This document shows, in pieces, positions 42,127 through 58,974 of a stretch of DNA of 64,000 nucleotides (its first letter is position 1; each line of letters begins with the position of its first letter). The notes below the pieces were generated by a model. It was not told where the DNA came from, searched no databases, and saw nothing but the letters and a program-made list of their open reading frames with translations. A program made the position numbers and the translations under genes. This DNA is from Aminobacterium sp. MB27-C1 (GTDB taxonomy: Bacteria; Synergistota; Synergistia; Synergistales; Aminobacteriaceae). The stretch spans positions 1,736,001 to 1,800,000 of the forward strand of contig NZ_CP133089.1 in NCBI RefSeq assembly GCF_030908405.1, in the 5' to 3' direction.

Positions 42127-42603
42127 ATGGCTCCATTTGAAGGCAAAAAGTTTGTACTTCTTGGTGAAAGAGACGGTATAGCCGGTCCTGTTATGGAAAC
42201 AATTCTCAAATCCATAGGATGTGAGGTTGTTTTTTCTGTAACTGAATGCTTCGTTTGAACCGCAGCAGGTGCAATGGATTTGCAAAATCAACAGCGAGTT
42301 AAAGATGCCGCAGATAAATTTGGTCCAGAAAACGTAGTCGTTGTTCTTGGAAGTTCCGATGCAGAAGGCGCTGAAATTTACGCTGAAACTGTTACCGCTG
42401 GAGATCCTACATTTGCAGGTCCATTAGCAGGAGTCCCGTTGGGACTCGCAGTTTTTCACATTTTTGATCCCCTATTTAAAGACAAAATTGATCAGGCTGT
42501 ATGGGAAGAACAGCTTGGCATGATGGAAATGGTACTGGACGTCGATGCTCTCGTCGAAGCTGTTAAAGGCATGCGAGAAGAACATAGCCAGTATCCTTTA
42601 TAG
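42127..42603 (+). CDS. grdA: Glycine/sarcosine/betaine reductase selenoprotein A
   Basis: Small selenoprotein (158 aa) that takes the carboxymethyl group from protein B as a selenoether and passes it on as a ketene-like form to protein C to yield acetyl phosphate, regenerated by thioredoxin. It is one gene read through TGA at 42256-42258: the frame gives VTECFVU then [13 protein letters not shown], the classic CxxU redox motif with Sec at residue 44, as in known GrdA. GGAAGGAGGTG precedes the ATG. A SECIS-like hairpin lies 12 nt after the TGA. Confidence 0.97.
42270..42284 (+). promoter_or_regulatory. SECIS-like hairpin of grdA
   Basis: TGCAA-TGGAT-TTGCA: a 5-bp stem and 5-nt loop whose second base is G, beginning 12 nt after the UGA. 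Bacterial SECIS elements lie just after the UGA, inside the coding region, and carry a conserved G early in the apical loop to bind SelB. Confidence 0.6.
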
Positions 42604-42693: not shown

Positions 42694-44004
42694 ATGAAAC
42701 TCGAGATCGGAAAGTTTTTTGTGAAAGATATCGTTTTCGGAGACGAAACAGCTTACAACAACGGTATTCTCACTATAAATAAAGAAGAAGCGTTGCAAGT
42801 CGTTATGGAAGACAGCCACATGACCGAAGCCGATCTTCATATCGTCCGTCCAGGAGATGAAGTTCGTCTTGTACCTGTAAAAGATGCCTTTGAGATGCGT
42901 TGCAAAGTCTCTGGAAGTGAAGGAGTTTACCCTGGTTGCACATCTCCTGTTGCTCCAGTAGGTTTTGGTCGCACGCATGCCTTGGCTGGTTGTTCTCTCC
43001 TTGTTGTAGGAAAGCACTGGGGCTCATTCCAGGATGGCCTTATCGATATGAGCGGTCCCGCACAGAGAAATACCATTTACGGTTTGATGCCTAACCTCGT
43101 TCTCGTTGGTGACACAGATGAAGAGTTCGAGCGTCGCGAGCAGCAGAAGAAAAACAAAGCTCTTCGCTGGGCTGGTATGAGACTCTCTGAGTATGTCGGC
43201 CGCTGTGTAAAAGATATGACACCTGAAAGCATTGAAACATGGGATCTTGAACCAGTTAACAGAAGAACTTCCGAAGTACAGCAATTACCTTCAGTTGTGT
43301 ACGTAGCTCAGCCTCAAACGCAGATGGAAGCCATGGGATACAACACTCTTGTTTACGGTTGGGATGGAAACCATATGCTCCCCACCTTTATGCATCCCAA
43401 TGAAATTTTAGACGGAGCTGTCGTCTCTGGAAGTTTCATGCCTGTATCATCAAAAATCTCTACCTATGAATGGGTTAACAATCCAACAGTTAAGCGTCTT
43501 ATGAAGGAACATGGAAAAACTATCAACTTCCTAGGCGTCATTATGTCAAACCTTAATGTTGTTATGGAAGAAAAAATTCGTTCAGCCAATATGGTAGCAC
43601 GTATGGCATTAAACCTTGGTGCTGATGGGGCAATCGTAGCTGAAGAAGGATATGGAAACCCCGACGTAGACTATATTCAGACAATAGTTGAGCTTGAAAA
43701 CGTCGGGATAAAAACAGTCGGACTCTCCAACGAGTGTACAGGTCGAGATGGAGCCTCTCAGCCCCTCGTTGCCCTTGATGAAAAGGCTACAGCCCTCGTA
43801 TCATCAGGAAACGTTTCTCAGATTCATGAACTTCCTCCGATGAAAACAGTTCTCGGAGAACTTGAATCTCTTGCACGTGACGGACTTTCTGGTGGATGGG
43901 AAGGATGCGTTCGAGAAGACGGGTCCATAATCATGGAGAATAACGCTATGTTCTGCGCTGATCATATCAGTGGATTCTCCGTAAAAACCTGTGCAGACTT
44001 CTAG
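42694..44004 (+). CDS. grdE: Glycine/sarcosine/betaine reductase protein B proprotein subunit
   Basis: Substrate-specific alpha/beta proprotein of protein B, which forms a Schiff base with glycine or a related amine via a pyruvoyl-type carbonyl made from an internal Cys after self-cleavage. MKLEIGKFFVKDIVFGDET at the start and the block LSNECTGRDGASQPLV are family-like; 436 aa. ATG 42694 has AAAGGAAG upstream; the longer frame is discarded. Odd point: no Cys occurs between residues 171 and 348 and there is no Asn-Cys dipeptide. Assignment as grdE or grdG cannot be settled by eye. Confidence 0.88.
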   Translation: MKLEIGKFFVKDIVFGDETAYNNGILTINKEEALQVVMEDSHMTEADLHIVRPGDEVRLVPVKDAFEMRCKVSGSEGVYPGCTSPVAPVGFGRTHALAGCSLLVVGKHWGSFQDGLIDMSGPAQRNTIYGLMPNLVLVGDTDEEFERREQQKKNKALRWAGMRLSEYVGRCVKDMTPESIETWDLEPVNRRTSEVQQLPSVVYVAQPQTQMEAMGYNTLVYGWDGNHMLPTFMHPNEILDGAVVSGSFMPVSSKISTYEWVNNPTVKRLMKEHGKTINFLGVIMSNLNVVMEEKIRSANMVARMALNLGADGAIVAEEGYGNPDVDYIQTIVELENVGIKTVGLSNECTGRDGASQPLVALDEKATALVSSGNVSQIHELPPMKTVLGELESLARDGLSGGWEGCVREDGSIIMENNAMFCADHISGFSVKTCADF

Positions 44005-44020
44005 GAGAGGTGAATTCCTG

Positions 44021-45346
44021 ATGAAAAAAACTATCCATTATATAAATCAGTTTTTTGGACAAATAGGCGGCGAAGACAAGGCTGATTTTGAACCTGTTAT
44101 TCATGAAGGAACAGTAGGTCCCAGCCTGTTATTAGATCAGAGCATGAAAGAAGTTTCAGTAACTCATACAGTGATCTGCGGAGATAACTTCATGGCATCT
44201 CACCCAGAAGAAGCTGTTTCCAGAATTCTCAGCATGCTTGAAGGCCTTGAATTTGACATGTTTATAGCTGGTCCAGCATTCCTTGCTGGTCGTTATGGAA
44301 CAGCCTGCGGAACAATATGCAAAGCTGTACAGGAAAAATTCAACGTGCCCGTATTCAGTTCCATGAATGTTGAGAACCCTGGAGTAGAAATGTTTAAAGG
44401 ACATCTTTATATCTTTGAAGGTGGACGAAGAGCGACCTACATGAAACAGGATATAGAAAAGCTTGCCTCTTTTGCAGATAAAATTGCAAAGGGTGAAAAG
44501 ATTCTTCCTGCTTCTATAGAGGGCTATTTCCCCCGTGGAATACGTCACGAAGTCTTCCTTGAAGATTTAGGCCTTGAGCCTAAGATGGCAGCGGATAGAG
44601 CTGTCGACATGCTCGTCAAAAAACTTACAGGGCAAGAGTTTATAACAGAACTTCCTATTCCAAAGCAGGATCGAGTAGACATTGCTCCTGCCGTAGCAGA
44701 TCTTCGAAAGGTTAAAATTGCTCTCGTTACTTCTGGCGGTATCGTTCCTCGAGAGAACCCTGATCATATTCAGTCTTGCTCTGCAACAAAATGGGGCGAA
44801 TATGATGTTTCCAAGCTTGATAGACTACCTGCCCCAGAATATAAAACCATACATGCCGGGTATGACCCTGAGCAGGCAGATAAAAATCCTAACGTAGTTG
44901 TTCCCCTTGATGCTATTCGCGCATATCAAAAAGAAGGTCGTATAGGTGAAGTCGATGATTACTTCTATACAACTGTAGGGACAGGAACAACACAGGGTGA
45001 AGCTGCACGTATGGGTAAAGAAATAGCAGAAAAGCTCAAAGAAAGAGGCGTAAGTGCTGTTATTCTGACATCCACCTGAGGAACCTGTACTCGTTGCGGG
45101 TCAACGATGGCAAAAGAAATTGAAAGAGCAGGTCTTCCAGTCGTAGTTATGTGTAACCTCGTAAATATTGCTAAAACTGTTGGAGTCAACCGTATCGTTC
45201 CTACAGTTTCGGTTCCTTATCCTCTCGGCAATCCAGCTCTTCTTCCTGAAGATGAGTGGAAGCTACGATATCATCGAGTAGGAGTGGCACTGGGCGCTCT
45301 CGAAACTGATATTTCTGATCAGACTGTATTTCCAGTTAAAATCTAG
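44021..45346 (+). CDS. grdB: Glycine/sarcosine/betaine reductase selenoprotein B
   Basis: Catalytic selenoprotein subunit of protein B (GrdB/GrdF/GrdH family), 441 aa. One gene read through TGA at 45077-45079: TSTU then GTCTRCGSTMAKEIERAG, the known UxxCxxC site with Sec at residue 353. HYINQFFGQIGGEDKA and TGGTG-like TTVGTGTTQGEAARMG blocks are typical. Starts 16 nt after the grdE stop with AGGAGAGG. Without recoding it would lack the last 89 residues. Substrate may be betaine or sarcosine rather than glycine, given the BCCT transporter downstream. Confidence 0.96.
45091..45107 (+). promoter_or_regulatory. SECIS-like hairpin of grdB
   Basis: TCGTTG-CGGGT-CAACGA: a perfect 6-bp stem and 5-nt loop with G second, starting 12 nt after the UGA, the same spacing as in grdA. 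Confidence 0.65.
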
Positions 45347-56094: not shown

Positions 56095-57375
56095 CTAAAG
56101 GAAAATACCTCTCATACGAACAGCATCTGCAACTCTCTGAATCGCTGCCATAAAGGCTGCGCGACGCATTCTTACGTTCTTCTCCTGAGAATAGTCCCAG
56201 ACTTTCGCAAAGTTGCCCTTCATAATGCTGATCAGACGCTCGTTGTACTCTTCGATGCTCCAGAAATATCCACCAAGATCCTGAGCCCACTCAAAGTAAG
56301 ATCCGATAACGCCACCGGAGTTGGCAAGGAAGTCAGGAACAATCATTACGCCTTTTTCATCAAGAATTGCGTCTCCTCCTGGAGTGAGAGGGCCGTTAGC
56401 TGCTTCAACAATATATTTTGCCTTTACTTTATCTGCGTTCTTTTCATTGATAACGCCCTCAAGAGCGGCTGGGATAAAGAGATCGACATCAAGGAAAAGA
56501 ATATCGGTAAGACCCATCTTCTCAAGGCCAGGCTGCTCGTAACCTTCAAGAAGTCTCTTTGGATGAACGTTCTGTACATAGTTCATAGCCTTATCGATAT
56601 CAATACCATCTTTACAATAGTATGTTCCTGTAATATCGCTGATACCAACTACTTTTCCGCCGGCATCCTGCAAGGTCTTGGCTGCGTAGGTTCCAACATT
56701 ACCAAAGCCCTGAATTGCAAAAGTAGCGCCTTTTACGTCTTTTTTCAAAGCCTTGAAAAGCTCAAGAGCACATGTAGCAACACCGTAACCTGTTGCTGCT
56801 GTACGGCCCTTTGAACCCCACATGCCTATGGGTTTACCTGTAAAAATCGCAGGCTCAAGACGGCCTCTCATTTTGCTGATGGTATCCATGAACCATACCA
56901 TCTCGGGACCACCTGTGTTCACGTCTGGAGCAGGAACGTCTGTCCATGCACCAACCATGGGCTCTATACGAGCAGCATATGTTCTTGCCACACGCTCTTT
57001 CTCTCGTTTTGACATTTCGAGAGGATCGCAGCAAACTCCACCCTTGCCGCCGCCGTAAGGAATACCAGCCAAGGAACATTTCCAGGTCATCATCATTCCA
57101 AGAGCTTCACATTCATCAAGGCAAACTTCCGGATGGAAACGGACTCCGCCCTTGGATGGCCCTATAGCCGAGGAGTGCTGTACACGATAGCCTTCAAAAA
57201 CTTTGACTGTACCGTCATCCATCTCCACTGGAATAGAAACCGCTAATTTCCTTTCGGAATGACTTAAAATTTCGATAAGTCCATCTTCAAGACCCATCTC
57301 TTCAGCTGCTGCATAAAAGTTGTTCAGAGCTGTGTCAAGGAGCACATTAGAGGACGTACGCTTAACCACGGACAT
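56095..57375 (-). CDS. gdhA: Glutamate dehydrogenase
   Basis: Hexameric enzyme deaminating glutamate to 2-oxoglutarate with NAD(P), central to amino-acid fermentation. Substrate-binding GGVRFHPEV and the catalytic Lys in PYGGGKGGVCCDP are present; the Rossmann segment GFGNVGTYAAKTL follows at about 215. 426 aa. AGGAGGTG before the ATG. Coenzyme preference is not certain. A strong promoter and an inverted repeat lie upstream. Confidence 0.97.
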   Translation of the reverse strand: MSVVKRTSSNVLLDTALNNFYAAAEEMGLEDGLIEILSHSERKLAVSIPVEMDDGTVKVFEGYRVQHSSAIGPSKGGVRFHPEVCLDECEALGMMMTWKCSLAGIPYGGGKGGVCCDPLEMSKREKERVARTYAARIEPMVGAWTDVPAPDVNTGGPEMVWFMDTISKMRGRLEPAIFTGKPIGMWGSKGRTAATGYGVATCALELFKALKKDVKGATFAIQGFGNVGTYAAKTLQDAGGKVVGISDITGTYYCKDGIDIDKAMNYVQNVHPKRLLEGYEQPGLEKMGLTDILFLDVDLFIPAALEGVINEKNADKVKAKYIVEAANGPLTPGGDAILDEKGVMIVPDFLANSGGVIGSYFEWAQDLGGYFWSIEEYNERLISIMKGNFAKVWDYSQEKNVRMRRAAFMAAIQRVADAVRMRGIFL

Positions 57376-57586: not shown

Positions 57587-57620
57587 AAGAAGGGACTGTC
57601 CTTTTGAACAGTCCCTTCTT
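57587..57620 (-). terminator. Terminator of the HesB-like selenoprotein gene
   Basis: Perfect 13-bp stem AAGAAGGGACTGT / ACAGTCCCTTCTT with an 8-nt loop, starting 24 nt after the TAA on the minus strand. The 3' arm ends in TTCTT and little further U follows. Confidence 0.75.
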
Positions 57621-57643: not shown

Positions 57644-57967
57644 TTAATGGCAGCTGCAACTACCACATCCCGAGCCTCGACTTGAGAGGGCAGAAACAAC
57701 AACTAAATTTGCTGCCCACAAAAAGCCCTTCAAATCTATTACTACCTCGTCATTCTGAAAAGACATGAAATCAGGAATCCAAAGAGTTACACCATCTACA
57801 TTGTATGAAGAATATCCTTCTTTTGCAGGTGGTTGTCCATTCTCAACGAGAACGGCTCGAACAGCGGCTCATCCTCCGCCTATATTTCTCTCAATAAGAA
57901 ATCCTTCTCCCATTTTTGACAGTCGTTCAAAAGCCTTGTCAGAAACCGATATTTTTAAATCTCTCAT
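57644..57967 (-). CDS. HesB/IscA-like selenoprotein
   Basis: 107-aa A-type iron-sulfur carrier-like protein read through TGA at 57871-57869. The frame gives MRDLKISVSDKAFERL, then IGGGU at residues 29-33, and continues to SGCGSCSCH and TAA at 107. IscA proteins have Cys near 35 in GGC(S)G and two Cys near 99-101; here Sec33, Cys101, Cys104 and Cys106 take those places, and the length equals IscA. HesB-like selenoproteins are a known family. GGAGGTG 8 nt before the ATG and a SECIS-like hairpin support it. Confidence 0.88.
57837..57855 (-). promoter_or_regulatory. SECIS-like hairpin of the HesB-like gene
   Basis: On the minus strand CCGTTCTC-GTT-GAGAATGG: an 8-bp stem (one G-U pair) with a 3-nt loop whose first base is G, starting 14 nt after the UGA. 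It fits the bacterial SECIS layout seen in grdA and grdB. Confidence 0.65.
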
Positions 57968-58002
57968 TCGCTACACACCTCCATACCCCTTGTCTGTATG
58001 TA

Positions 58003-58974
58003 TTATACCCCCTTGCAGTATTTCTGCCAACCCTTAATTTGCAAAAACTTATAAAAAAGGTTGTCAGGCTCCGCAGGAAATACTCTTCCCTCTAAATACT
58101 CAAGAGGCGCTTTCATATTATGAAAGGAAATGGACCAAGCATGAAGAAGAGGGTGACTCAGGTGGATTCGCCTATACCATTCTTTATTGACAGTAGACGC
58201 TCCATATTTGACATCGCCAACGACAGGGTAATTCAAAGAGGCCAAATGCACTCGTATTTGGTGAGAACGTCCCGTCAATAAATGCACCTTTAGAAGAGAA
58301 TATTTGTCATCTCCTGCTATCTTCTCAAAATGGGTGTGAGCCACCTGCCCCGAAGGATCAACTTTTACAATATTTTTATCCCTATCTTTAAGCAAGGGCA
58401 ATGTAATATCTCCTTCCTGAGGCGTTTTTCCATATACTGCAACTAAATATGTTTTTCGTACATCATCATCCCTAAAAGCTCTTTGAAGCTCCCTCACTGC
58501 CTGCCCATGAAGAGCCACTACAACAAGACCAGTTGTATTCCGATCAAGACGATGTACGGCACAGGCACGAAAATCTTCTTCGGGAGGCACTTCTGCCCAA
58601 ACCTGCTCAATAAGACTCTCTTCTCCACTTTCGTCAGGTTGAACAAGAAGGCCAGCTCTTTTGTTAAGAACCATAAGAAATTGATCTTTATAAACAACAG
58701 CAAGGGGAATTCTTCTCTCTGTTGTCTTTTTCTTTTCATTTTTTTGCATTGCGAAACTATGATTATGTTCTTCTGGCCTCTCCCAAGGGACATAAACAGA
58801 TTGTCCCTCCTCCAAACGAACAGAGCACGCAACCTTTTTCCCATCTACTCGAACAAGCCCTTTTCTAATTCCCTTCATCATTGCTCCAAGGGGAAGAGTT
58901 GGCCACAATGTTCGAATGACTTTATCCAACCTTCTTCCGTCATGATGCTCGGAAACAGTAAAGGTATAAGACAT
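58003..58974 (-). CDS. RluA-family pseudouridine synthase
   Basis: Isomerises uridine in rRNA (RluC/RluD type). An N-terminal S4 domain (about 12-75) precedes the catalytic HRLDRNTTGLVVVA (catalytic Asp) and GRSHQIRVHLASLNYPVVGD. 323 aa. Its ATG follows directly the TAA of the upstream nuclease gene, with GGAGC nearby, so it is coupled. Which rRNA site is modified cannot be decided. Confidence 0.94.
   Translation of the reverse strand: MSYTFTVSEHHDGRRLDKVIRTLWPTLPLGAMMKGIRKGLVRVDGKKVACSVRLEEGQSVYVPWERPEEHNHSFAMQKNEKKKTTERRIPLAVVYKDQFLMVLNKRAGLLVQPDESGEESLIEQVWAEVPPEEDFRACAVHRLDRNTTGLVVVALHGQAVRELQRAFRDDDVRKTYLVAVYGKTPQEGDITLPLLKDRDKNIVKVDPSGQVAHTHFEKIAGDDKYSLLKVHLLTGRSHQIRVHLASLNYPVVGDVKYGASTVNKEWYRRIHLSHPLLHAWSISFHNMKAPLEYLEGRVFPAEPDNLFYKFLQIKGWQKYCKGV

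Follow-up and report, generated by a model that had tools for sequence, protein, structure and literature searches.

An NF041239-family selenoprotein with a probable IscA-like fold and a candidate partner cysteine in Aminobacterium sp. MB27-C1

RESULTS

A reading frame with one in-frame TGA between rluA and gdh

The stretch of DNA analysed here (the window) comprises 64,000 nt, positions 1,736,001–1,800,000 of the genome of Aminobacterium sp. MB27-C1, which is a single contig of 2,427,830 bases. Translation of the window gives, at 57967–57644 on the minus strand, a protein of 107 aa whose frame contains a single TGA. This is a genuine small gene in which UGA almost certainly encodes selenocysteine (Sec). 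The features of the locus are as follows.

58003–58974, minus strand: RluA-type pseudouridine synthase (PF00849, 4.5e-33; synteny), the conserved upstream neighbour
58002–58030, minus strand: promoter-like TTGGCA-17-TATAAT (11/12) between rluA and the gene, from a consensus scan only
57976–57982, minus strand: ribosome-binding site GGAGGTG, 8 nt 5' of the ATG
57644–57967, minus strand: selenoprotein gene, ATG 57967–57965, TAA 57646–57644, Sec33
57869–57871, minus strand: in-frame UGA for Sec33, with which almost all relatives align a TGA
57837–57855, minus strand: SECIS-like hairpin within the coding region, its stem of 8 pairs CCGUUCUC/GAGAAUGG closing a GUU loop, the G of which lies 22 nt past the UGA
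57647–57667, minus strand: Cys-rich C-terminal tail CGSCSCH (C101, C104, C106), conserved in general at its first Cys only
57587–57620, strand not assigned: hairpin of 13 pairs, possible terminator, between the gene and gdh
56095–57375, minus strand: Glu/Leu/Phe/Val dehydrogenase (gdh; PF00208; synteny), a frequent downstream neighbour

The initial annotation had described an overlooked HesB/IscA-like selenoprotein at this place. Its account of the gene agrees with the sequence in coordinates, ATG, GGAGGTG, the single TGA at 57871–57869 (residue 33, within IGGGU), the GCGSCSCH C-terminus and TAA, and on the gene's own strand the standard code indeed gives no ORF spanning 57644–57967 without interruption. 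The hairpin that it had taken for a terminator after the stop exists (57620–57587), but the scan calls a terminator there on the plus strand only. GGAGGTG also precedes the orthologues in genomes G030 and G031. A 90-aa ORF on the opposite strand (57765–58037) was considered as well, and nothing that we found supports it.

The order PGM-HD-rluA-gene-gdh, whole or for the most part, recurs in many families of Synergistota, and the neighbourhood is old, without a clear functional hint. A motif search 3' of rluA in 20 genomes, most of them lacking a tblastn match, recognised no orthologue; by this motif search, rluA and gdh lie near each other in G036 and G103.

UGA is almost certainly read as selenocysteine

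Matches were found by tblastn in 58 of the 188 Synergistota genomes, and nearly all of them carry TGA in the same column, a homology that puts the UGA reading far beyond chance. At this column L031, a tandem paralogue, and L032, a syntenic orthologue, have cysteine. The protein is 81% and 78% identical to those of two congeners. Against the G030 orthologue dN/dS is 0.04 for the gene as a whole and 0.05 for the part ahead of the UGA, with synonymous sites saturated past codon 46, and against that of G031 it is 0.12 (codons 34–95), values which indicate that the gene is under purifying selection.

The hairpin that had been proposed as SECIS-like starts 13 nt 3' of the UGA, and it covaries. Over 39 sequences 86.2% of the cells are paired, while slid controls reach at most 51%; 30 double changes are observed versus 11.8 in shuffles (0 of 500 shuffles), and the loop holds G in 36 and U in all 39 sequences. 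It should be noted that conservation of the hairpin is partly at the protein level, since the encoded LVES motif overlaps it; the informative stems are the changed ones, such as GUCUUCA/UGAAGAC in L011. Two further properties are unremarkable and were dropped as weak evidence: the folding energy of the single sequence (z –1.3) and the openness of the frame after the TGA. Of the 394 ORFs in the window that end in TGA and span 32 codons or more, 22 are followed by at least 74 open codons.

The host genome contains selA (571 bits), selB adjoining it (362 bits), tRNA-Sec (73 bits) and selD, itself with an in-frame TGA. Sec machinery, a SECIS element after the UGA and Sec/Cys exchange among homologues, the features by which bacterial selenoproteins are recognised, are all found for this gene. 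That the organism decodes UGA had previously been surmised from other selenoproteins in the window, and these are confirmed as GrdA (42127–42603, plus strand; NF040748, Sec44, UGA 42256) and a GrdB/GrdH-type selenoprotein B (43991–45346, plus strand; UGA 45077), both in one glycine/betaine reductase cluster.

Read with the standard code, the frame has one in-frame stop, as would a pseudogene decayed through a nonsense mutation. Against such decay stand dN/dS values well under 1, the TGA column common to dozens of species, the covarying hairpin and the full Sec machinery; we consider it ruled out, with a negligible residual probability, and take residue 33 as selenocysteine with high confidence.

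The protein belongs to a named but little-studied family

With C in place of U, residues 5–90 of the protein match the NF041239 model at 43.5 bits (cut-off 40), and all 15 family members tested match this model too. When stops are read through, the curated model passes in only 7 of the 188 Synergistota genomes, the window locus itself scoring 37.0, and many more genomes carry the gene. TIGR01911, the HesB-like selenoprotein family to which the initial annotation had by implication assigned the gene, consists of small IscA-related proteins with Sec replacing a conserved Cys, and the window protein is alike in these respects. Its model, however, gives no match in the host genome, none over the cut-off in the 188 genomes, and none was reported for the 15 members that all match NF041239. 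The motif of TIGR01911 is UxGP (PMC13188914), which is absent from the window protein, where UAAV is found. Membership in TIGR01911 is therefore rejected, and that this is an ordinary HesB-like selenoprotein is very improbable.

NF041239, the 'CC/Se motif family (seleno)protein' (Moor_selen_rel), is an already named selenoprotein family (PMC13188914, Table 1), so the window protein, likewise small and with one Sec and scoring above the cut-off, is a member of a little-studied family and not a wholly new kind of protein. The published motif of the family is CxxU (PMC13188914), whereas the window protein has GGGU and a Cys in the C-terminal tail as the candidate partner; among the Synergistota Sec members listed, none has a Cys at –3 of Sec. 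Whether the gene had been overlooked is doubtful, since it may already be among the 13 known selenoproteins, with no new ones, given for Aminobacterium sp. MB27-C1 (GCA_030908405.1; PMC12013277, Table 2). Searches of plasmids and viral contigs returned no relatives, and neither did the window protein as a query against genome contigs; with A2 as the query against genome contigs, eight Synergistota metagenome contigs were found.

A remote link to the IscA fold

In a Pfam search the window protein has no PF01521 match; this model is weakly matched by 4 of the 15 members (best E 0.022), and a sequence search of the PDB gave nothing meaningful. The link to IscA is remote and is supported by profile–profile comparison and by an AlphaFold/Foldseek search. 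Aligned by hhalign with IscA, SufA and ErpA of E. coli, the family reaches a score of 31.4, with a probability of 64.5% and E 6.3e-5 for one comparison, and Sec33 falls on Cys35, as had been proposed when Sec33 was equated with the first IscA Cys. Decoys all score lower, at most 25.1 for 300 in which the IscA columns were shuffled and at most 19.0 for 200 shuffled from the family. An AlphaFold model, built template-free from 9 sequences, is of moderate confidence (pLDDT 75.6, pTM 0.64), with a disordered tail (pLDDT <50). A Foldseek search of the PDB with this model is headed by nine matches, made up of chains of IscA and SufA together with AQ_1857, YneR, HI1723 and DsrR, which we take from their names to be IscA/SufA relatives; E ranges from 0.001 to 0.06, all above 0.001, at TM of about 0.35–0.5. 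The fold predicted by this model is in all likelihood IscA-like.

Compared with the A-type carriers IscA/SufA/ErpA (PF01521), the family shares the predicted fold and strand order, with Sec33 on Cys35 and the tail Cys on the CGCG region; it differs in having no Pfam match, no conserved CGC pair and only one general tail Cys. Of the proposal that this is an IscA-like protein, the predicted fold thus stands, but the PF01521 match is missing and the C...CGC pattern of three ligand cysteines is not conserved: Sec33 and one tail Cys are kept and the rest is variable. The NF041239 family, named but uncharacterised, is hereby linked to the IscA fold.

PF01521 itself was found in none of the 188 Synergistota genomes; the same search was positive in 9 of 14 control genomes.

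The candidate partner cysteine changes its place between lineages

The Synergistota genomes are unevenly represented in our sample, and the counts below are uncorrected for kinship. In the raw table of the 67 members with U33, 44 have only a tail Cys, 12 only C34, three both and eight neither. In the three cases with both (L128, L129, L131) a TGA directly follows the domain and the tail Cys lies beyond it; we recounted these as C34 without tail, which brings this group to 15, a regrouping made after seeing the table. Among the eight with neither, seven have upstream hydrophobic stretches resembling signal peptides, and the eighth is L127. Exclusivity of tail Cys and C34 gives a Fisher P-value of 3e–13, which overstates the evidence because the test uses the regrouped counts, omits the seven exported-looking members and takes related genomes as independent, with no correction for kinship.

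The C34 form occurs at the rluA locus in at least two families (f2 and f5). Relatives outside Synergistota (in G300 and G355) have CFSU, CSTU or QCTU, motifs of the CxxU or CxU type, and no tail Cys; the NF041239 model scores 48.1 in G355 and 36.2, below the cut-off, for one G300 frame. By lineage, then, the presumptive partner Cys is a residue of the C-terminal tail in 44 members, the window protein among them, is adjacent to Sec in 15, and stands two to three residues upstream of it in relatives outside the phylum. That the Cys paired with Sec shifts between lineages, as these alignments suggest, is new in this analysis.

Locus L160 of G300, outside Synergistota, holds two neighbouring NF041239-like frames with CxxU.

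DISCUSSION

Computation supports the gene, its Sec decoding, its family, its fold class and the conservation of Sec and Cys as a pair. One movable Cys conserved together with Sec points to a functional Sec–Cys pair, acting in redox or as a metal site of two ligands, rather than to the classical carrier with three cysteines, as far as conservation can tell. A selenium-paired Cys that sits at one of three places according to lineage offers a concrete, testable mechanism, both for the identity of the Cys that pairs with Sec and for the ability of an IscA fold to serve in selenol redox chemistry.

Our first choice, held with a little better than even confidence, is that the product acts as a redox protein through Sec33 and Cys101 on an IscA-type scaffold. 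It would be a small cytosolic selenoprotein, in which SelB, guided by the hairpin inside the coding sequence, places selenocysteine at residue 33. In its IscA-like beta fold, Sec33 would occupy the first ligand-Cys position of A-type Fe-S carriers, and a flexible C-terminal tail would provide Cys101 as the partner, Cys104 and Cys106 being additional. The Sec33–Cys101 contact is only putative, since the model shows a disordered tail. The selenol/thiol pair might then cycle via a selenenylsulfide, in a reductase-like role or in redox transfer on a presumed substrate. The Cys in the tail or beside Sec, not both, speaks for such a pair, as does the fact that paralogues that look exported make up almost all of the members lacking both. 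Against the redox reading, the neighbours rluA and gdh indicate no redox pathway, in several paralogues that look exported no partner Cys for the Sec is detectable, and some orthologues keep the Cys tail with Ser or Arg at the Sec column.

Our second choice, to which we give roughly a one-in-three chance, is that Sec33 and the tail Cys bind metal as ligands in a divergent A-type carrier of Fe-S clusters or of a soft metal, selenium replacing the sulfur of the first ligand. The IscA-like fold with Sec33 aligned to ligand Cys35 agrees with this, as do the Cys-rich tail in this genus and the absence of PF01521 from all 188 Synergistota genomes; the protein would perhaps stand in for the missing IscA/SufA/ErpA. 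Yet the CGC ligand pair is unconserved, the tail of many members has a single Cys or none, exported-looking paralogues exist, and among the neighbours that are conserved we saw no gene for Fe-S assembly. The idea of a phylum-wide replacement of IscA is weakened and can hardly hold, since in most Synergistota, which lack PF01521 too, no member of the family was found.

A broader picture, which we offer tentatively and as doubtful in its entirety, is that Synergistota lack recognisable IscA-type carriers and that the family is a selenium-based A-type branch, cytosolic and exported, whose Sec–Cys pair with a relocatable Cys performs a redox or metal chemistry for which no protein of the IscA fold is known.

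Several variants were noticed beside the main family. In genus g29 the rluA-linked L033, L035 and L036 have Ser or Arg at column 33 and keep the Cys-rich tail, and selA is still present in the genomes. Exported-looking paralogues with an in-frame TGA include L040, L043, L047, L139–L143 and others, several of them without a detectable partner Cys. The host genome also carries, outside the window, a second, diverged paralogue (L159:1177–1578 approximately, G000:C1 about 290,680–291,080) with a signal-peptide-like N-terminus, the motif YRGIUGEDASALV and one in-frame TGA, after which comes a similar hairpin.
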